Source: Methanoregulaceae archaeon (GTDB lineage Bacteria; Armatimonadota; Fimbriimonadia; Fimbriimonadales; Fimbriimonadaceae). From it: a stretch of DNA of 64,000 bases. The translations under genes and the position numbers were made by a program. Below the pieces are notes generated by a model that saw nothing but the letters and a program-made list of their open reading frames with translations, had not been told where the DNA came from and searched no databases. The DNA lies in NCBI GenBank assembly GCA_020850325.1, contig JADZEW010000016.1, positions 1 through 64,000 of the forward strand, in the 5' to 3' direction. The stretch's first letter is position 1, and each line of letters begins with the position of its first letter. Positions 2,334 through 27,040 of this stretch are shown here, in pieces.

Positions 2334-3124
2334 TACTTCGTCCGTTCGAGATACGCGTAGGCGTTGTGTGCGTGGATCGACTCGAAGTTCTCCACTTCGA
2401 TCTCGTACCACGTGATCCGCTCGTCGGCGTTGAACTTCAGCGCGACTTCGCGAACCATGTCCTCCACGAATCGCGGGTTCTCGTAAGCGTGCTCGGTGAC
2501 CCACTTCTCGTCTGGGCGCTTCAGCACCGGGAACAGCGCGCACGACGCGCTCGACTCGATCATCTCGATCACCTCTTCCAACCACACCATGTCGCGGAAG
2601 CGGATCTTGGCGGTTACCAGGCCGCGCTGGTTGTGCGCGCCGTACTTGCTGATCTCCTTCGAGCACGGGCAGAGTGTGGCGACTGGCACCTTGACCGCGA
2701 GGATGAAATCGTCGGTTCCGTTCGATTCGGCGATGAAGCCGCACTCGAACTCCATCATGCCTTCCTTGCCGGTGACGGGAGCCTTCTTCACCATGAAGAA
2801 CGGGAACGACACTTCGATGTGCGCGCGCTCGGCGGTCAGCCGCTCCTTCAGCGCCTTCAGCATGTTGGGCAGGGCGTGGATGCTCATCTCGCCCTTGTTC
2901 TCGTTCAGCACTTCAAGGAAGCGCGACATGTGCGTGCCCTTAAAGTGGTGCGGCAGATCGACGGTAAGCGTGAAGTTGCCAATCGTATGCTGGCGCTCGT
3001 TGGTTCGGTCGAGCACCACAATCGGGAACTTGACCCCGCGAACGCCCACCTTGTCGATCGCAATGTTGCGCGCATCGATGGAGTTCTGGATGTCGACGAG
3101 GGGAGTTTGGTTCGGCGTGCTCAT
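2333..3124 (-). CDS. folE2: GTP cyclohydrolase FolE2 (type IB)
   Basis: A 263-residue protein matching the GTP cyclohydrolase IB (COG1469/MptA-FolE2) family over its length. It converts GTP to 7,8-dihydroneopterin triphosphate, the entry step to folate and queuosine. Diagnostic segments are LCPCSKEIS (about residues 158-166, with the conserved metal-binding cysteine) and the C-terminal ESIHAHNAYA. FolE2 is the enzyme form that tolerates zinc limitation. No folate partner gene is adjacent; the neighbours are the RAYT element and a divergent FHA protein. Confidence 0.95.
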   Translation of the reverse strand: MSTPNQTPLVDIQNSIDARNIAIDKVGVRGVKFPIVVLDRTNERQHTIGNFTLTVDLPHHFKGTHMSRFLEVLNENKGEMSIHALPNMLKALKERLTAERAHIEVSFPFFMVKKAPVTGKEGMMEFECGFIAESNGTDDFILAVKVPVATLCPCSKEISKYGAHNQRGLVTAKIRFRDMVWLEEVIEMIESSASCALFPVLKRPDEKWVTEHAYENPRFVEDMVREVALKFNADERITWYEIEVENFESIHAHNAYAYLERTK

Positions 3125-3132
3125 GACGGTAT

Positions 3133-3147
3133 CGGGTGCTTCACCCG
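3133..3147 (-). promoter_or_regulatory. Small hairpin in the folE2 leader
   Basis: CGGGTG-CTT-CACCCG, a perfect 6-bp stem with a 3-base loop, ends 8 bases before the folE2 ATG. No clear ribosome binding site lies between it and the start. It could affect initiation; there is no evidence for a known riboswitch. Confidence 0.35.
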
Positions 3148-3215
3148 CCCCTCAACATACGCGATTTTTGTGAGGATCGTTTGTCTTAGGTTCACTCGGA
3201 CGCGTCTTATCCTCT

Positions 3216-4487
3216 GTGGGCCACATCCTCTTTACCGCCATTGTCGGCGCGCTCAGCGGCTTTTGCGCTTGGCTGATCAGCGAGCCGATGATGCCGCCGA
3301 TCTATGGCGATCCTCGCGGGCAGACCGCATCGCTTGTGTTTGTGGTCTTACTCGGCGCGTTCATCGCCGGGTCGGTGGGGGCGCTGACCGGCTATCGTCA
3401 GGGCAGCCGACGCCACCTGATCACCGGGTTGCTCATCGGCCTGGTCGCCGGGGCCATGGCGGGTTCCATCGGCGGCGCCGTGGGAGGCGGGCTAGCGTTC
3501 GCGCTGTTTCCGGGCTTCGACCGCGGGCTCGGGGTCTCGACCCTCCCCGGGCGTATCGTGCAGATCACTCCGCTAGGAGCATTGATCGGTCTGGCGATTG
3601 GGCTGCCGCTACGCTCGCCCAAGCAAGCGACGCTTGGGCTCATCGGCGGCGCGATCGGCGGGGCCATCGCGGGGGCCGCGTTCGATCCGCTAAGCGTCGC
3701 TTTGCAGAGCTTCACTCAACTGGCCCAAGGCGGCAACGAGATCGGCAAGCCCGGTCGGGCGGCGATGGCCGTGGTGCTCGGTGGCTCGATCGGGCTCTTC
3801 GTTTCGCTTGCTCGAGAAGTCGCAAAGACGGCATGGCTTCGTTTGCGGCTGGGCCGGAACGAGGGGCGGGAGTGGGTGGTCGATGCGCCCCAGACGTTCA
3901 TTGGCCGAGACGAGCGCGCCCACGTGCCGCTGTTCGGCGATGGGAACATCGCCCCGATGCACGCCTGCATTGTACGCCACGGACGCGACTACGTGATCCA
4001 CGACGGCGGCACCCCGCTGGGCATCATGGTCGATGGGCAGCGCGTGCCTCAGGCGGTTCTGAACCATGGTTCGGTGATCGAGATTGGGGGCCACACATTG
4101 GAGTTTTCTTTGAAAGGGGGAAGAGCCCCGGTGCGTCCGCCCGATCAAGTGAGCGCAGTTTCGGCTCCCGCGTCAGTCGTCATGCCGTCCGCCCCTGCCG
4201 CTCCGGCGGGCGCGAGCCTCACGATTCTGAATGGGCCGAATCCGGGGCAGCAGGTGCGGGTGGTCGATGCGGTTGAGATTGGCCGGGAGGCGAGTGGCCT
4301 TCGCTTAGACCATGACCGCAATGCGTCTCGCCGCCACGCTCGGATCGAGCTCAGCCCGTCCGGCCTCATGATCACCGATCTCGGCAGCACAAACGGCACC
4401 TTCGTCAACGATCAACGGATCACTCAGTCCCCGATCCGATCTGGGGATCGGATTCGGATTGGTGGAACCGAGTTGCGGGTTGACTAA
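3216..4487 (+). CDS. Membrane protein with two C-terminal FHA domains
   Basis: 423 residues from a GTG start. Residues 1-200 hold several Gly/Ala-rich hydrophobic segments (about 5-22, 40-58, 68-98, 118-130, 138-158, 183-198), likely membrane spans of glycine-zipper type. Two FHA phosphothreonine-binding domains follow. The first (about 226-300) is more diverged, with FIGRDERAHV and MHACIV. The second (about 335-423) is canonical, with EIGREASG, SRRHARIE and DLGSTNGTFVND. A membrane-tethered pair of FHA domains suggests recruitment of proteins phosphorylated by a Ser/Thr kinase, but no kinase or phosphatase gene is nearby. The target is unknown. Confidence 0.9.
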   Translation: MGHILFTAIVGALSGFCAWLISEPMMPPIYGDPRGQTASLVFVVLLGAFIAGSVGALTGYRQGSRRHLITGLLIGLVAGAMAGSIGGAVGGGLAFALFPGFDRGLGVSTLPGRIVQITPLGALIGLAIGLPLRSPKQATLGLIGGAIGGAIAGAAFDPLSVALQSFTQLAQGGNEIGKPGRAAMAVVLGGSIGLFVSLAREVAKTAWLRLRLGRNEGREWVVDAPQTFIGRDERAHVPLFGDGNIAPMHACIVRHGRDYVIHDGGTPLGIMVDGQRVPQAVLNHGSVIEIGGHTLEFSLKGGRAPVRPPDQVSAVSAPASVVMPSAPAAPAGASLTILNGPNPGQQVRVVDAVEIGREASGLRLDHDRNASRRHARIELSPSGLMITDLGSTNGTFVNDQRITQSPIRSGDRIRIGGTELRVD

Positions 4488-5828: not shown

Positions 5829-6019
5829 GGCGTATCACTCTCCGGCAACTCCTTGTTGCCGCTTGTATCTTAGCAGACTCCCCAAACCGCAGTTTGGATT
5901 CAAGACACCGCCTGACCGCAAAAACTTGCATCTCCTAGCAATTCTCCGTGTAGATGTCGGAGCGCAGATTCCGACAATCCCTTACAGGGCTCCAAGGGGG
6001 CCAGAGGAGAAGCACGCAG

Positions 6020-7222
6020 ATGCCGGTGTTTGCCTATACGGCGATCGACTCGTCGGGAAGAACCGTTAAGAGCACAATGGAAGCAGACAGCGAAACGCTG
6101 GTTCTGTCGAAACTGCGCGATCAGGCGATGCACTGCACCGATATCAAGGTCGCCAAGAAGGGCGGCTCGATTTCGGTGGGTCGCAAGAAGCTGAAGCCGA
6201 AGACGATCGTCGTTTTCTCGCGACAGTTCGCCACCATGATCGACTCGGGCATCCCGATCCTGCGTTGCTTGGACATTCTAAGCGGCCAGGCGAAGGATCA
6301 CCTCATGAAGGAGACGCTCGAGGCCGTCACGAACGACGTGAAGAGTGGTATGGCGCTGAACGAGGCGCTGCAAAAGCACCCGGCGGTCTTCAGCAAGCTC
6401 TATGTGAACATGATTCGCGCCGCCGAAGTCGGCGGCATCCTCGATCTGATCCTCGACCGTTTGGCTGGGTTCCTCGAGTACGAATCGGAGATCAGGGGCA
6501 AGATCAAGAGCGCGATGATGTACCCCGTGTTGGTCCTCGCTTTCTCGATCCTGATGCTCTTCATCCTGTTCTCATTTGTTCTGCCAAAGTTCAAAGAGAT
6601 CTTCACCGGAATGGATGTCGAACTGCCTCCCGTTACGGCGGCAATGTTCAAGTTCGGCGACTTCATGCAATCCAGTTGGTGGGTGATCATCCTTGCTGTT
6701 GGCGGCGTTTGGTTCGGCATCAAGCAGTGGGGCAAGACGCCCAACGGCCGATACAAGCTGGACTACATGAAGCTCAAAATGCCGATCATCGGCGAGCTTG
6801 CGCTCAAGATGTCGATTGCCCGCTTCACGCGGACCTTCGGCACCCTGATCAACAGCGGTGTTCCGATGCTTCGCAGTTTGGAGATCGTCGGCGAGACGAT
6901 GGACAACGCCGTCCTTACGGCAGCCATCGATCAGACGCGCAGCAGCATCCGTGAGGGACAGAAGCTGAGCGATCCGCTGACCAAATCCAACTTGTTTCCG
7001 ACCATGGTGACCTGTATGATCGACGTCGGCGAAGAGTCAGGACGACTCTCCGAGATGTTGGTCAAGGTTGGCGACTTCTACGATGCGGAAGTCGAAGCGA
7101 CCGTAAAGGGTTTGACGAGCATGATCGAGCCCGCGCTGATCATGTTCATGGGCGGGATCGTGGGATTCATCGCGATCTCCGTTATGACGCCCATCTTCAA
7201 GCTGGTCAACAGCGTGAAGTAA
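6020..7222 (+). CDS. pilC: Type IV pilus / type II secretion inner-membrane protein PilC/GspF
   Basis: 400 residues. The start at 6020 is preferred over an in-frame ATG at 5954 because AGAGGAG lies 10 bases upstream and the protein then begins MPVFAYTAIDSSGR, the normal family start. Two T2SSF domains (about 45-170 and 250-375) are present; the first carries FSRQFATMIDSGIPILRCLD and the second FTRTFGTLINSGVPMLRSLE. Hydrophobic spans lie near residues 170-195, 215-235 and 375-395. PilC/GspF forms the platform that couples the pilus or pseudopilus ATPase to assembly. The gene is isolated from other assembly genes; a pseudopilin gene lies at 13507. Confidence 0.93.
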   Translation: MPVFAYTAIDSSGRTVKSTMEADSETLVLSKLRDQAMHCTDIKVAKKGGSISVGRKKLKPKTIVVFSRQFATMIDSGIPILRCLDILSGQAKDHLMKETLEAVTNDVKSGMALNEALQKHPAVFSKLYVNMIRAAEVGGILDLILDRLAGFLEYESEIRGKIKSAMMYPVLVLAFSILMLFILFSFVLPKFKEIFTGMDVELPPVTAAMFKFGDFMQSSWWVIILAVGGVWFGIKQWGKTPNGRYKLDYMKLKMPIIGELALKMSIARFTRTFGTLINSGVPMLRSLEIVGETMDNAVLTAAIDQTRSSIREGQKLSDPLTKSNLFPTMVTCMIDVGEESGRLSEMLVKVGDFYDAEVEATVKGLTSMIEPALIMFMGGIVGFIAISVMTPIFKLVNSVK

Positions 7223-9884: not shown

Positions 9885-11660
9885 CTAATGCCGATAGAAC
9901 TTCTTCAGCAGCTCATGCCGCGATAGCGTGATTGTGATCGGGCGTCCGTGCGGGCACAGGTACGGATTCTCGGTCGTCGCCAGATCGAGGATCAGCTTTT
10001 CCATCTCGGCATGCGACAGCGGGTCGCCGGCCTTCACCGCCATCTTGCACGCGCTCATGATCCAGATCTGCTCGCGGGTGGGGGTGAGCTTGCGCGAAAC
10101 CGCACTGTCGACCAGTTCGTCCACCACATCGCGCAGCACCCGCATCGGGTCCTTCCCCCGCAGCGCCGCCGGGACCGCGCGCACCACAAAGCTCTCGCCT
10201 CCGAATGGCTCGATGTCGAAACCCACGTCCACCACTTCTTGAAGCCGCTCGCGGAGCATCATCGCCGCCGGGCGGTCGAGGTGGAGCGTCTCGGGAGCGA
10301 GGAGCGTTTGCTTCTCGATGGCGTGCAGGCCCTTCAGGCCGCACAGATATTCGTAGAGGATGCGCTCGTGGGCGACGTGCTGGTCGATGATCACGATGCC
10401 GCGTGCGGTCTCCGCGATGATCAACGTGTCCATCGCCTGGCCGATCACCCGCAGCCCCTCAAGCAACTCAATGAACGGGAATCGCTCGCGATCGCCGGTC
10501 ACCCCGGGCGGCAGCGAGATCGAGCTCTCCGGCATCGGCACGGGCATCTCTAAAGGAGCCTGAGCCGCCATGGCCGCTTCAAAGATCCCCGCCCCGAACG
10601 TGCTCATCGGCGAGGGCATCGCCGCTTCGGCGAGCGCTTGGTTCGCGGCGGCGATCCCGGCCGCGTCGGGCATCATTCCGCTCTCCATCAGCGCCGCTCG
10701 GATGGCGGTGCGCACCGCGTCAAACGCCTGCCCTTCCTGCTGAAATCGAACCTCGCTCTTCGTGGGAGAGACGTTCACATCCACCCGCGCCGGATCGACC
10801 TCGATCATGAGCACCACGCCGGGGTATCGCTTCTCGGGAGTCAGGTCGCGGTATGCCTGATCCACCGCCGCGGTCAGCATCCGCGAGCGCACCGGCCGCC
10901 CATTCACATACACGTATTGGTAGGCGCGCGTCGGGCGGGTCATGTAGGGCGGGCTGACCCATCCGTGGACGCGCAGATTCGGGTGAACCAGCTCTGCCGG
11001 CACCATGCCTCTCGCCTGATCGCGCCCCCACAGTTCGGCAATCGCCTGCTGCAGATCGCCCGAGCCGGTGGTCGTCAGCGCCTGCTGGCCGTTGTGGATC
11101 ACGGTGAACGCCACGTGCGGATACGCCATCGCGTAGCGGGTGACATGCTCGAGCGCGGCCGAGAGCTCGGTCGTATCGCTCTTGAGGAACTTGAGCCGCG
11201 CAGGGGTGTTGAAGAACAGGTCCTCGACCGTGATCTCCGTCCCTCGCGGCCCGGCGACGCGGGCAACGCCTTGGATGGTCCCGCCCTCCACGCTGATTCG
11301 CGTGCGCCCGCTGTCGTCGGTTCCGGTCGAGAGCGTGAACCGCGACACCGACGCAATCGAGGGCACGGCCTCCCCGCGGAATCCCAGCGTCGAAACTAGG
11401 AGGAGATCATCGGCCGAGGTGATCTTCGACGTCGCGTGGCGCTGGAGCGCCATCTGCGCCTCGTCGGGAGCCATACCGATGCCGTCGTCACTGACTCGGA
11501 TGAGTGTCCGACCCGCATCGGAAAGCTCGACGGTCACCCGCGTCGCTCCCGCATCGAGCGCATTTTCGACGAGTTCCTTGACCACCGAGGCCGGGCGCTC
11601 GACGACCTCACCGGCCGCGATTTGGTTGACGGTGTGCGGATCGAGCAAACGAATCTTCAC
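9885..11660 (-). CDS. mutL: DNA mismatch repair protein MutL (endonuclease type)
   Basis: 591 residues from a GTG start. The N-terminal GHKL ATPase shows GEVVERPASVVKELVENALD (conserved Glu and Asn), DDGIGM and a TLGFRGEA segment. The C-terminal dimerisation/endonuclease domain keeps DQHVAHERILYE (residues 426-437, DQHA motif with V for A), SACKMAVKAG (about 536-545) and CPHGRP (569-574), which together build the zinc-containing nicking site found in bacteria without MutH. MutL should therefore incise DNA after MutS recognition. mutS is not in the window. The gene faces kbl and diverges from the poly-G gene at 11787. Confidence 0.96.
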   Translation of the reverse strand: MKIRLLDPHTVNQIAAGEVVERPASVVKELVENALDAGATRVTVELSDAGRTLIRVSDDGIGMAPDEAQMALQRHATSKITSADDLLLVSTLGFRGEAVPSIASVSRFTLSTGTDDSGRTRISVEGGTIQGVARVAGPRGTEITVEDLFFNTPARLKFLKSDTTELSAALEHVTRYAMAYPHVAFTVIHNGQQALTTTGSGDLQQAIAELWGRDQARGMVPAELVHPNLRVHGWVSPPYMTRPTRAYQYVYVNGRPVRSRMLTAAVDQAYRDLTPEKRYPGVVLMIEVDPARVDVNVSPTKSEVRFQQEGQAFDAVRTAIRAALMESGMMPDAAGIAAANQALAEAAMPSPMSTFGAGIFEAAMAAQAPLEMPVPMPESSISLPPGVTGDRERFPFIELLEGLRVIGQAMDTLIIAETARGIVIIDQHVAHERILYEYLCGLKGLHAIEKQTLLAPETLHLDRPAAMMLRERLQEVVDVGFDIEPFGGESFVVRAVPAALRGKDPMRVLRDVVDELVDSAVSRKLTPTREQIWIMSACKMAVKAGDPLSHAEMEKLILDLATTENPYLCPHGRPITITLSRHELLKKFYRH

Positions 11661-11731: not shown

Positions 11732-11760
11732 TTGTAAGCAGGACAAAAGTGTTATATAGT
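11732..11760 (+). promoter_or_regulatory. Sigma-70-type promoter before the redox gene
   Basis: TTGTAA (11732-11737) and TATAGT (11755-11760) are separated by 17 bases in a markedly A/T-rich stretch; a perfect TTGACA lies at 11720-11725 but is too far from the -10. Transcription would begin near 11767, about 20 bases before the ATG at 11787. Confidence 0.5.
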
Positions 11761-11786: not shown

Positions 11787-13137
11787 ATGGTAGGCGGCAA
11801 CAACCCCCGGCAACGAATAGATCAGGTTCTTCGCGCGACGAGTTCAACTGTGATCGCGCTCATCGCGTTGTCTGCATATCTAACCGTCATGACTGTTGAA
11901 CGACTTCAACTCGAGACGTCTGGCTTCGCTGGCGGTGCACTCCTCCTCAGTTCGAGTCAATCCAATCTGGAACAGCAGTACAGCGACCTGTCCAAACATC
12001 TGCCAATCGTGGTGGCCGTCGAAGGCACTCCGCGCGGACAGATGCTGGAGGGCCAGGTGAAGATGCTCACGAAGGGGTCAGCGAGCGGGGGGGGGGGGGG
12101 CACCGCTTATCATTATGGACCAGGTGCGTCAACGCGGCGCCAGCGTATATTTTGGGCAAACGGGTGTTAATCTGGGGCTGGCACAACTCCATCAGAGTGA
12201 GACTGCTCGAGGCCGAAGTGTTGCGCCCCTTCTAGTCGGCTTCTCCGCTTTCCTCGTTGGGATAATGTGGCGGCCACAGCGTTTGGCAACGGCTTTGTTA
12301 GTTGGTTTAGCCGCCGTTGTCGCATCTGTTCGTTACTTCTACAAATGCGTGACTTGTCCTGATGTCGTGCTTCCCGTCCTGCAGGTTGATCTAACACTGG
12401 CAGGGGTAGTGTTGTTCACTGCCGCTTCGTTCCTGATCCTCCATTCACGGGCAACACTCGTGCCACACCTACTGTCTTTCGCTGTAGCCTATCAGTTGTA
12501 TCTACTCTTTGAGTTGGGGGCTGACTGCAGCCTATGCTTAGCGATCCTTGCGCTAATCACTCTGGCCACTACTGCGGAATCCATGAAACCCCTTGATTCA
12601 GATCCAGTTCGTATGAGGAAGTGGGCCCATCGTTCGCTCTGCGGCGCTGCAACTGCAACGGTAGCCCTGCTGTTTCTTGCCGGTCAGCATACAGGTCAGC
12701 AATTGGCAGCGACCCCGCAGGTAGCACCCAAGATTAATGCCGAAGCTCTTGTTGGTCAACACTGGGATCTGCTGCAGGTCGAAGGCCTTGTTCCAGAACA
12801 GGGCCCCTTCTTGCTCGTCATTGGCTCCTCTGAGTGCGCGCCTTGTCGTCTTGCATACCGATGGGCTGCAACCGACCTTAATCTGCCAACACATGCTGTA
12901 GAACCATTTGCTGATCGAAGCGGTGAGTCTGTTGCTCGTTCACGCGCATGGCTATCCGAGACCTCTCCAATTACTGCATCACCGACCCTAGCATTGATCG
13001 GATCTAGCGGACGGATTCTAGCCATTGAACAGGGCTGGGCAGAGAATGCGGCCGTAAAGGAGAGCTTGAAAAAAACAATGTTCTCGCTCGTTTCTACTGA
13101 CGTGGAAACGGCGAAGCAACAAGGAGAAGATCGATGA
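11787..13137 (+). CDS. VKOR/thioredoxin-like membrane protein, split at a poly-G tract
   Basis: Two frames join at a run of 14 G (12087-12100). As written, translation from ATG 11787 stops at TGA 12168-12170. With 13 G (or 16) the frame continues to 13137, giving about 449 residues. The restored protein has an N-terminal span (about 17-35), an extracytoplasmic segment with a Gly-rich linker encoded by the G tract, then four to five spans with two CxxC pairs (KCVTC near 187, DCSLC near 247), resembling the vitamin K epoxide reductase fold. A final thioredoxin-like domain with CAPC (near 351) follows. VKOR-thioredoxin fusions oxidise secreted proteins. The family assignment is moderate. The next gene, for a ten-cysteine secreted protein, overlaps it by 4 bases. 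The break is either phase variation or a homopolymer error. Confidence 0.65.
12087..12100 (+). repeat. Homopolymeric tract of 14 G inside a coding region
   Basis: Fourteen consecutive G interrupt the VKOR-like gene. Such tracts are classical slippage sites, and the number present places the downstream coding sequence out of frame by one base. It is by far the longest mononucleotide run I noticed in the window. Confidence 0.95.
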
Positions 13138-13457
13138 AATGGAAACTGGCCTTGCCGGCCCTAATCGGATTGGCCTGCGCAACCGCAATGGGGTCAAACC
13201 CTTGCCCCGCTAACGGTAAATCCATGGGCACCGCGATTCAACGTAAGTGCGAAAGCGGTGTCCCGAATTGCTCATTCTTGCTTCCGAATTATACTTCGGA
13301 TCGGGTATGCAACGTCTGGTGCTGCTATGATTACTCTGGCGCGCCGATGGGTTACTTGTTGGAGGGTTGTAGTGCTTGGGCACCCAATGGTTGTTGTAGC
13401 GACCTGAACCCAGGTTGGTTACCCAATGGGGCACCGATCTGCGACGACCCACTGTGA
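13134..13457 (+). CDS. Secreted cysteine-rich small protein
   Basis: 107 residues. A signal peptide (MKWKLALPALIGLACATAMG) probably ends after ATA, near residue 18-20; the LAC there does not make a proper lipobox. The mature part of about 88 residues contains ten cysteines, including two CC pairs (VWCCYDY and GCCSDL), and is rich in Asn, Gly, Pro and aromatic residues. I know no family match. The ATG overlaps the TGA of the redox gene (ATGA) and is preceded by AAGGAGAAG, so the two are probably translationally coupled. An even number of cysteines beside a disulfide-exchange membrane protein suggests an enzyme-client pair. The function is unknown. Confidence 0.75.
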   Translation: MKWKLALPALIGLACATAMGSNPCPANGKSMGTAIQRKCESGVPNCSFLLPNYTSDRVCNVWCCYDYSGAPMGYLLEGCSAWAPNGCCSDLNPGWLPNGAPICDDPL

Positions 13458-13466
13458 GAAGGGCAC

Positions 13467-13492
13467 GGATTCTGGTCGCATGACCAGAATCC
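13467..13492 (+). promoter_or_regulatory. Perfect 11-bp hairpin before the pseudopilin gene
   Basis: GGATTCTGGTC-GCAT-GACCAGAATCC lies between the cysteine-rich gene and the pseudopilin, ending 4 bases before the TAGGAG ribosome binding site. It could end or attenuate transcription from upstream, stabilise mRNA, or be an operator. It has no T tail. Confidence 0.55.
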
Positions 13493-13506
13493 GACTAGGA
13501 GATGAA

Positions 13507-14139
13507 ATGAGAAAGAACAAAGCCTTTACGCTCGTCGAGATGATCGTGGTCATTGCGATCATCGCCGTGCTGGCAGCACTCCTCGTACCCGTGGCCGCGC
13601 GAGCTCGAGCGTCTGGTCAAGAGACCGAGTGCCTAATGCGAATGCGTCAGGTGTACATCGCTCTAAAGCTGTACTCGGAGGATCATGGCTCGATGGCTCC
13701 ACCTGCGCCAGGCTTGGTGCCCTTGGCCCCCTATGCCAAGAGCGAGGCGGTTTTCCAGTGCCAGGTGGAGAACTCGATCAAGCCAAGAGCCGACGGACAA
13801 TATCGGGCGCAGTTGCTGGACCTGACCGAGAACGGCCCAGCCTCCCCATTTCGGATCAGCTACGGATATCTTGGCGACTACACGAACGAGACGATACTGG
13901 GTGTCTGGTCCAAGGTTGGCGCGCTTTCTAAAGTCGGCGTGATCGCCTGCCCCTGGCACGCGCCACTCAAGGGCGAGCAGAGTCCCTTGTTGAAGCATCT
14001 TCAACCCCGCGAAGGAGTTACCTTGCGAATTTGCAACGAGGGTAGCGTGTATAAGTGGCCAAAAGCTCTCTGGCGCCACATTAACACTGGCGATCTCTTC
14101 TTCCATCCGTATAGCGGGCGGGAGCTCTTCGGGCCATGA
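13507..14139 (+). CDS. Type II secretion/type IV pilin-like pseudopilin
   Basis: 210 residues from ATG 13507 (TAGGAG 5 bases upstream). The N-terminus MRKNKAFTLVEMIVVIAIIA is a prepilin peptidase site: cleavage would fall between A6 and F7 (Ala instead of the usual Gly), leaving Glu+5. After the hydrophobic helix comes ECLMRMRQVYIALKLYSED and DHGSMAP, the pattern of the abundant prepilin-like proteins of Planctomycetes and Armatimonadota. Two cysteines in the C-terminal half (CQVEN and ACPWHAP) may form a disulfide. It sits in the redox gene cluster and overlaps the next gene by 4 bases, so it may share its export route with pilC at 6020. Confidence 0.88.
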   Translation: MRKNKAFTLVEMIVVIAIIAVLAALLVPVAARARASGQETECLMRMRQVYIALKLYSEDHGSMAPPAPGLVPLAPYAKSEAVFQCQVENSIKPRADGQYRAQLLDLTENGPASPFRISYGYLGDYTNETILGVWSKVGALSKVGVIACPWHAPLKGEQSPLLKHLQPREGVTLRICNEGSVYKWPKALWRHINTGDLFFHPYSGRELFGP

Positions 14140-14459
14140 GGGCAGCCGTGTTTGCGTTAGTGTTAGTTGGATGCGCGAAGCCACCGCCCGTCGTGGTGGG
14201 TCATTCTCTTGTCCTGTCGGAAGCGAGGCTCCAAGTGGGCGCGGATGGGCAACTTGAAGTTTCTGGCAGCGTACAAAACCAAGGCACCGCCACGCAGGGC
14301 AGCATCGAGTTCGAAGTGTTTGATGCTACGGGCTCCCCTTCGGGATCGGTCATCGCGCGTTTCCCATCGGTGGACTCAGGCGCCACGAGAGAGTTCAGCG
14401 TGCCCGTGGGGCCGACCGTGAAAGGTTTTCGCCTCAAGCAGATCAAGACCGCACCCTAG
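14136..14459 (+). CDS. Small predicted lipoprotein
   Basis: 107 residues with a lipobox LVGC (Cys13) after a short hydrophobic stretch. The mature part (about 23-100) is a predicted all-beta domain: ...VSGSVQNQGTATQGSIEFEV... resembles FxLYD/CARDB-type immunoglobulin-like folds with the pattern of a sequence-variable beta sandwich. The ATG overlaps the pseudopilin stop (ATGA), so it is co-translated with it. A role in anchoring or assembling the pseudopilin is only suggested by position. Confidence 0.75.
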   Translation: MRAAVFALVLVGCAKPPPVVVGHSLVLSEARLQVGADGQLEVSGSVQNQGTATQGSIEFEVFDATGSPSGSVIARFPSVDSGATREFSVPVGPTVKGFRLKQIKTAP

Positions 14460-26683: not shown

Positions 26684-27040
26684 TGGTGGAGGCGGCGGGA
26701 ATTGAACCCGCTTCCAAAACCGTCGCCCCTTCCGTTACCACGAGCGTCTCCCCTGTTCTTTTCTCGGCGGCGATCTCTCCCGGGGCCGGCTGATCACTCG
26801 CTCAGTTCGATTTATTTAACCAGGCTTGCTACGAACAGAAGCTCACCCAGCGGTCCGGATTTGATTAGACCCGAACTCTCCCCTACCGGCTCGAGGAGGG
26901 CGGATCCGCAGTCCTAGTAACTAGGCCGCGAAGGCGTAATTGTTATTCGCAACTACTTGTTTTGCCGCTTTTAACGAGGCCAACGGCGCCTCGGCTCGCA
27001 ACTGAAAGTCGAACCGGCCCTGTCGAACCCGTTCGCCCCC
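26684..27040 (-). ncRNA. ssrA: Transfer-messenger RNA (tmRNA)
   Basis: 357 bases. The 5' end GGGGGCG (27040 downwards) pairs with CGCCTCC near the 3' end, which finishes with the T-arm GCGGGTTCAATTCCCGC and an encoded CCA (26684-26686). The 5' part GAACGGGTTCGACAGG is the usual tmRNA opening. The tag frame occupies 26965-26921: codons give AKQVVANNNYAFAA then TAG, followed by a second in-frame-like TAG region. The tag ends in the hydrophobic AFAA expected to be read by ClpXP. It rescues stalled ribosomes together with SmpB, which is not in the window. Confidence 0.95.

Follow-up and report, generated by a model that had tools for sequence, protein, structure and literature searches.

Enzymes that form disulfides are in known cases encoded beside one multi-cysteine exported protein, as BdbA/BdbB are beside sublancin and MauD/MauE beside MauA. 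Bacterial VKOR-Trx oxidases (PF07884; Synechococcus VKOR, 3kp9) hold two cysteine pairs in a membrane helix bundle, which is followed by a periplasmic thioredoxin (Trx) domain. In Neisseria, pilC, an accessory gene of the type IV pilus, is phase-variable and contains a tract of 9-20 G (PMC5953494); it is one of several Neisseria contingency genes whose tracts have such lengths. The Verru_Chthon pseudopilin cassettes (TIGR02596, TIGR02599) are multi-gene sets that encode prepilin-like proteins in an environmental phylum. Here we describe a gene cassette of Armatimonadota that resembles each of these systems in part. As with sublancin and MauA, a disulfide enzyme gene adjoins the gene for a multi-cysteine exported protein, hereafter the client; the enzyme shares the paired cysteines and the domain order of VKOR-Trx oxidases; a homopolymeric G tract of a length similar to that of pilC lies within a gene reading frame of a pilus-associated set; and the match to the Verru_Chthon proteins is one of the N-terminal motif only.

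Layout of the locus

The window, that is, the whole stretch of DNA analysed, covers 64 kb (bases 1-64000 of contig 16) of a genome of 3.5 Mb in 41 contigs that is 98% complete (G000). The first-pass annotation of this DNA had proposed an A/T-richer island of four genes joined by 4-base overlaps or a hairpin gap, with three CxxC pairs in a membrane protein, ten mature cysteines in a secreted protein and a pseudopilin, and all of these features were found in the sequence (Table 1). The GC content of the cassette is 55.7% vs. 61.4% for the window, which ranks it 2nd lowest among 307 segments of equal length, and its GC3 is 0.49-0.69 vs. 0.83-0.86 in two neighbouring genes. ATGA overlaps join enzyme to client (13134-13137) and pseudopilin to lipoprotein (14136-14139). 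According to the ORF list, translation from 11787 is out of frame past the G tract and ends at 12170. The downstream enzyme frame, with an internal ATG at 12115, extends from 12061 to 13137. Of the CxxC sites, KCVTC (12346-12357) and DCSLC (12526-12537) lie in the VKOR-like bundle and CAPC (12835-12846) in the Trx domain. Elsewhere in the window, a PilC/GspF-like type IV pilus platform protein, read from its translation only, is encoded at 5954-7222, ~4.6 kb upstream of the cassette, and a tmRNA with the tag ANNNYAFAA lies on the minus strand at 26684-27040. An Rfam scan of the 64 kb returned tmRNA and tRNAs and nothing else.

Table 1. Features of the cassette and its flanks, with positions in the window
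Feature	Position	Strand	Description
mutL	9885-11660	minus	flanks cassette; named from its translation
promoter-like site TTGTAA-17-TATAGT	11732..11760	+	ahead of cassette; from a consensus scan alone, count no higher than in shuffles
5' part of Trx-VKOR-Trx gene	11787..12170	+	TM1 and most of the degenerate N-terminal thioredoxin-like domain; ORF
G14 tract	12087..12100	+	candidate phase-variation site inside enzyme gene
3' part of Trx-VKOR-Trx gene	12101..13137	+	VKOR-like membrane bundle and C-terminal Trx domain
secreted cysteine-rich protein, 107 aa	13134..13457	+	presumed client; ORF; ten Cys past signal peptide
intercistronic hairpin	13466..13493	+	12-bp stem, 4-nt loop; by folding, -21.6 kcal/mol, z -3.7 to -5.9
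pseudopilin, 210 aa	13507..14139	+	prepilin N-methylation motif; kin to cassette pseudopilins of relatives
FxLYD-domain lipoprotein, 107 aa	14136..14459	+	co-directional; ATGA overlap with pseudopilin
motA-like gene	from 14566		flanks cassette on the other side from mutL; named from its translation

The enzyme, its presumed client and their distribution

With the PF07884 model no cassette enzyme reaches an E value of 0.1, and the window enzyme was not recovered in a survey that found the housekeeping VKOR genes. Nonetheless, the proposal that it is a VKOR-thioredoxin enzyme is borne out by profiles, since a profile of the enzyme family recovers PF07884-positive VKOR-Trx proteins (E about 1e-10), and profile-profile comparison (hhalign) aligns the family with VKOR-Trx (prob 97, E 4e-11) over the second cysteine pair and the Trx motif. 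Human VKOR gives a weak alignment in which the expected helices are paired. In relatives, the enzyme gene is a single ORF of 410-458 aa. Six cysteines, making up three CxxC pairs, are invariant in an alignment of 15 members (numbered by its first row), namely C193/C196 and C255/C258 in the membrane bundle and C364/C367 in the C-terminal Trx domain, where P411 is likewise invariant. For an intact relative of 410 aa, AF2 with an alignment of six sequences gave a model of mean pLDDT 64.5. It has a helix (residues 10-42), a beta-alpha-beta-alpha-beta-beta-alpha domain (45-120), six more helices, with a CxxC after helix two and before helix five, and a C-terminal Trx domain; the order of the helices is that of VKOR topology. 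By structure comparison, the model contains a Trx/GST-N-like fold at 39-128 and a CcmG/ResA-like fold at 301-410, where it matches CcmG 3kh9 (Z 8.2, 102 residues, rmsd 3.0). In a separate search, the C-terminal domain matched glutaredoxin 5cax (E 3e-4). Synechococcus VKOR 3kp9 aligns with residues 148-409 at Z 8.0 and an rmsd of 13 A, the confidence of the model being low within the bundle.

The assignment of the cassette enzyme as a divergent Trx-VKOR-Trx protein is well supported. Its layout of TM1, a periplasmic thioredoxin-like domain that is cysteine-less in most members, a VKOR helix bundle and a C-terminal thioredoxin domain is, to our knowledge, undescribed so far. Judging from the sequences, the cysteine-less state of the N-terminal domain is probably derived, because the G111 relatives still carry a CxxC there (CPEC, CPGC). 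An ordinary housekeeping VKOR is encoded elsewhere in the genome (C28:90750), as it is in 80/85 genomes of the family, and a dedicated role fits the cassette enzyme better than a general one.

The presumed client has cysteines at residues 24, 39, 46, 59, 63, 64, 79, 87, 88 and 103, all past the signal peptide, and an eleventh (C15) inside it. Searches of Pfam, NCBIfam and PDB returned no family for it, and a fold from single-sequence AF2 (pLDDT 49) was set aside. Used alone as a query, the client finds few and distant matches, but around these the genes are arranged as in the window cassette. The family consists of small, very divergent proteins on a conserved cysteine scaffold, and the distances among clients are correlated with those among enzymes (Mantel r 0.30, p 0.002). 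In one relative (L152, G018:C19, 3846-4865), a single frame runs from the VKOR part into a Cys-rich domain, and the Trx domain is lost.

Family profiles combined with neighbourhood annotation gave about 27 cassettes in 21/291 genomes of the phylum, and these genomes represent more than one order and a number of families. As a rule, the VKOR-like enzyme is followed by the cysteine-rich protein and then by the pseudopilin and a small membrane protein in either order, with frequent start/stop overlaps or near-overlaps between the genes. All 19 confident client homologues in the 291 genomes (cutoff E <= 1e-6; all have E <= 3e-7) directly adjoin a cassette VKOR-like gene; a pseudopilin is nearly always present as well, in line with the pilin-like partner foreseen by the first-pass annotation, and the small TM protein is often to nearly always there. 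Regular occurrence of the client without a VKOR gene was not seen, and among the weaker matches one lacks a VKOR-like neighbour (G274). Six genomes (G009, G014, G020, G031, G033, G111) hold two different cassettes each, which suggests that these sets multiply or move as units. Queries of plasmids with the enzyme, of phages with the client and of viral contigs with the pseudopilin returned no relative, leaving a plasmid or phage origin unsupported.

The enzyme, client and pseudopilin are the conserved members of the four-gene set as first proposed. The fourth gene, which encodes a lipoprotein with the lipobox LVGC and an FxLYD domain (32.5 bits vs. a cutoff of 23), is absent from the neighbourhoods of the other cassettes and is local to the window, and the small membrane protein had not been foreseen. 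The latter, of 140-165 residues with ~3-4 predicted TM segments, is encoded by most relatives and is missing from the window cassette; Pfam searches with it found nothing. It is fused to the pseudopilin in G022, G039 and G064. The pilin-like portion of the G064 fusion no longer carries the prepilin motif, and this speaks against a function of that member in a pilus. The window pseudopilin passes the N_methyl model PF07963 (34.4 bits vs. a cutoff of 21.2). Its conserved part, searched against 84,980 species, is found at 11 loci, all in Armatimonadota or unclassified bacterial MAGs, and at three of these (L080, L086, L087) enzyme and client are absent. Stems like that of the hairpin between client and pseudopilin occur at the same place in G120, G151, G153, G033 and G022. 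Since the hairpin is recurrent and not universal (about 6/19 cassettes), we do not count it as a defining part. An intrinsic or classical terminator was ruled out, given that the hairpin has no T run and is missing from the terminator list; it may set the ratio of client to pilin.

G tracts in the enzyme gene and at other cysteine-rich loci

The two enzyme frames of the window join if the tract has 13 or 16 G (one removed or two added), and 13 G give a protein of about 449 aa. In G020, the enzyme carries G10 at a neighbouring loop and is one G out of frame, and a second enzyme copy in the same genome carries G9 and is in frame; the enzyme of G163 has an in-frame G11 before TM1. Variation in tract length is known from a between-species comparison at one site, where three congeneric species have G10 (G162), G11 (G163) and G24 (G161), the last of which borders the end of its contig and could stem from a sequencing error. 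Enzyme genes of other genera carry tracts as well, at sites that differ. Genome-wide, tracts of at least G10 are rare (8 in G000, 2 in G020 and 4 in G163). For the six genomes counted, random placement would give 0.011 VKOR genes with such a tract, and three were seen (Poisson P 2e-7); because these genomes were partly chosen for tracts already seen, we prefer a conservative count (24 genomes, 8 tracts each), which gives P 6e-5. This recurrence, far above chance, agrees with the phase switch proposed by the first-pass annotation. Going by the tracts themselves, slippage probably turns the set on and off by shifting the enzyme out of frame, and since the enzyme stop overlaps the client start, the coupling at the ATGA would probably lower client translation as well. 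Even when the gene is OFF, internal restart at the ATG at 12115 could still yield the VKOR-Trx core.

Tracts of this kind also mark other pseudopilin loci. We inspected the 32 pseudopilin loci of G000, which account for its 42 N_methyl matches. A small secreted Cys-rich neighbour is present at four, the window (G14), L160 (G13), L161 (G12) and L200 (G9); thus 4/4 loci with such a neighbour have G9-G14, and none of the other 28 has a tract of at least G8 (p 3e-5). A fifth neighbour called by the heuristic (L182) is a spurious arginine-rich frame; if it is counted, the figures are 4/5 vs. 0/27. At L160 (G000:C8:77500-82600, 1166-2597), G13 (C13 on the coding strand) lies ~70 bp ahead of the gene for a secreted 10-Cys protein of 77 aa, which is followed by a 186-aa TM protein and a pseudopilin, VKOR being absent. 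At L161 (G000:C8:163600-168700, 2574-3750), G12 lies upstream of a pseudopilin, after which comes a 127-aa secreted protein with 12 Cys. At L200 (G000:C35:67200-71200, 1386-2881), an in-frame G9 sits near the start of a TM-anchored CASC protein, to which Pfam assigns no family, and a pseudopilin and an 8-Cys secreted protein follow; this could be a Trx-like version of the cassette. Two Cys-rich/TM/pseudopilin sets of G014, L170 (C2) and L172 (C6), have G10 just ahead of, or G11 (C11 on the coding strand) within, the Cys-rich gene. The client profile does not recover these non-window clients, and VKOR is absent from their loci.

The existence of analogous pilin-linked Cys-rich cassettes without VKOR, in G000 and another genome, implies that the enzyme is an optional module and not strictly required. 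The earlier claim of an enzyme coupled to one dedicated client is supported for the client family proper, by its adjacency in all 19 cases, and does not extend to these analogous sets. There seems to be a broader class in which G tracts are linked to Cys-rich and pseudopilin genes, with the window cassette as its form that includes a VKOR. Four further loci (L166 and L167 in G163, L163 and L164 in G000) have G10-G12 within or close to the start of genes whose predicted products are secreted proteins or lipoproteins, which suggests a wider set of contingency genes in the phylum. A bolder extension, which we put forward tentatively and hold to be somewhat doubtful, is that phase-variable, pilin-linked disulfide-knot cassettes occur phylum-wide, that the folding enzyme would be switched in place of the displayed protein, and that parallel cassettes with and without VKOR would form a combinatorial switchboard for the surface or secreted repertoire.

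The tracts could instead be neutral slippage sites in the dying gene of a dispensable cassette, the frameshift being a pseudogene lesion or an assembly error. About 9/27 cassettes have a broken VKOR gene, in several of them through an IS insertion, a deletion or a stop that lies outside any G tract, and the spread through the phylum is patchy, as the 21 genomes among 291 attest; the G24 of G161, with its place at a contig end, would also suit such an account. In L073 (G014:C3, 5106-6870), and at a contig end in L015, an IS3-like element interrupts the enzyme gene, and there is a further frameshift in the 3' half. Because such breaks are unrelated to G tracts, decay is part of the story and loss of the enzyme seems to be tolerated. 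Nevertheless, the copies in the window and in G020 are one G from an open frame and free of any other lesion, the client, the pseudopilin and the cysteines remain intact, and tracts exceed chance by far both in the enzyme gene and at all Cys-rich/pseudopilin loci of G000. We therefore regard decay as an improbable explanation of the cassette as a whole.

Proposed function and comparison with known systems

On balance, we lean towards a phase-variable cassette for the oxidative folding and display of a disulfide-rich secreted or pilus-displayed protein. The client would be co-translated with the enzyme and exported by Sec, and the C-terminal CxxC of the inner-membrane enzyme would take electrons from client cysteine pairs and pass them through the two VKOR CxxC pairs to quinone, so that the client gains four to five disulfides. 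The oxidized client may then be handled by its dedicated pseudopilin, joined in most relatives by the small membrane protein, and by type IV pilus/type II machinery of the cell, and a pilus-like fibre would finally display it or serve as its route of release. We infer with some force both the specific link of enzyme to client and the switch. The client might be a toxin, an adhesin or a pilus tip, as first suggested, or an antigen.

Release is the main competitor to display. Here, the same enzyme-client pair would feed a type II-like pseudopilus that exports the folded product, which might be bacteriocin-like, an enzyme inhibitor or a signal, and the G tract would restrict production to some cells. 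The pilus-type machinery of the genome (a prepilin peptidase, 4 secretins and 42 N_methyl proteins) fits display, and its peptidase and secretins would serve such export as well; the size, signal peptide and high sequence turnover of the client suit a released effector. Substrates of type II secretion complete their folding and disulfides before export, which also speaks for release. On the other hand, no obvious immunity-like gene is present, unless it is the small TM protein, which the window copy lacks, and type II secretion is not known to give each client a pseudopilin of its own. Two points favour display: a pseudopilin of the same family nearly always adjoins the client, and exposed proteins typically show phase variation and diverge rapidly around a cysteine scaffold; the abundance of pseudopilins in the genome is a point against a special pilus link. 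Weighing these arguments, we consider release unlikely.

In a third explanation, VKOR-Trx matures the client, a periplasmic protein that binds metal or acts in redox reactions, in the manner of MauA, for which MauD/MauE offer the precedent of dedicated membrane and Trx maturation of one multi-disulfide protein, with the pseudopilin a mere structural neighbour. The cassettes contain no dehydrogenase, cytochrome or metal gene, and phase variation and fast divergence are ill-suited to a metabolic enzyme, which makes this explanation highly improbable.

The cassette bears on several questions. Disulfide machinery is usually treated as housekeeping, and on/off control of a surface or secreted protein through a switchable oxidase devoted to a single client would be unusual. 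Armatimonadota are free-living and poorly studied, and likely phase variation in such a phylum would be a rare case. The cassette would also assign a function to part of the large pseudopilin complement of the phylum, for which a count of 79 was reported in Fimbriimonas ginsengisoli (PMC4072686). Two protein families, the client and the small membrane protein, are defined here, and neither has a known relative.

In the freely accessible journal literature covered by our search, neither the cassette nor phase variation in Armatimonadetes has been described; this and the family searches with the client agree with the initial impression that the set fits no known system. Compared with VKOR-Trx oxidases, the cassette enzyme misses the Pfam VKOR model, has an extra N-terminal TM and a degenerate Trx domain, and is client-linked, G-tract-bearing and encoded in addition to a separate housekeeping VKOR. 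The sublancin and MauA pairs differ from the cassette in client family, which is unrelated, and in the Sec signal peptide, the pseudopilin partner and the G tract. Unlike pilC of Neisseria, where the tract lies in the pilus gene, the cassette has its tract in a disulfide enzyme (or, at other loci, in or near Cys-rich genes) and not in a PilC/PilY1 homologue, and its switching is putative. The window pseudopilin scores far below the family cutoffs of the Verru_Chthon models, and we know of no VKOR or Cys-rich client in those cassettes. The parts of the cassette are thus of known kinds, and it is their conserved combination that is new.
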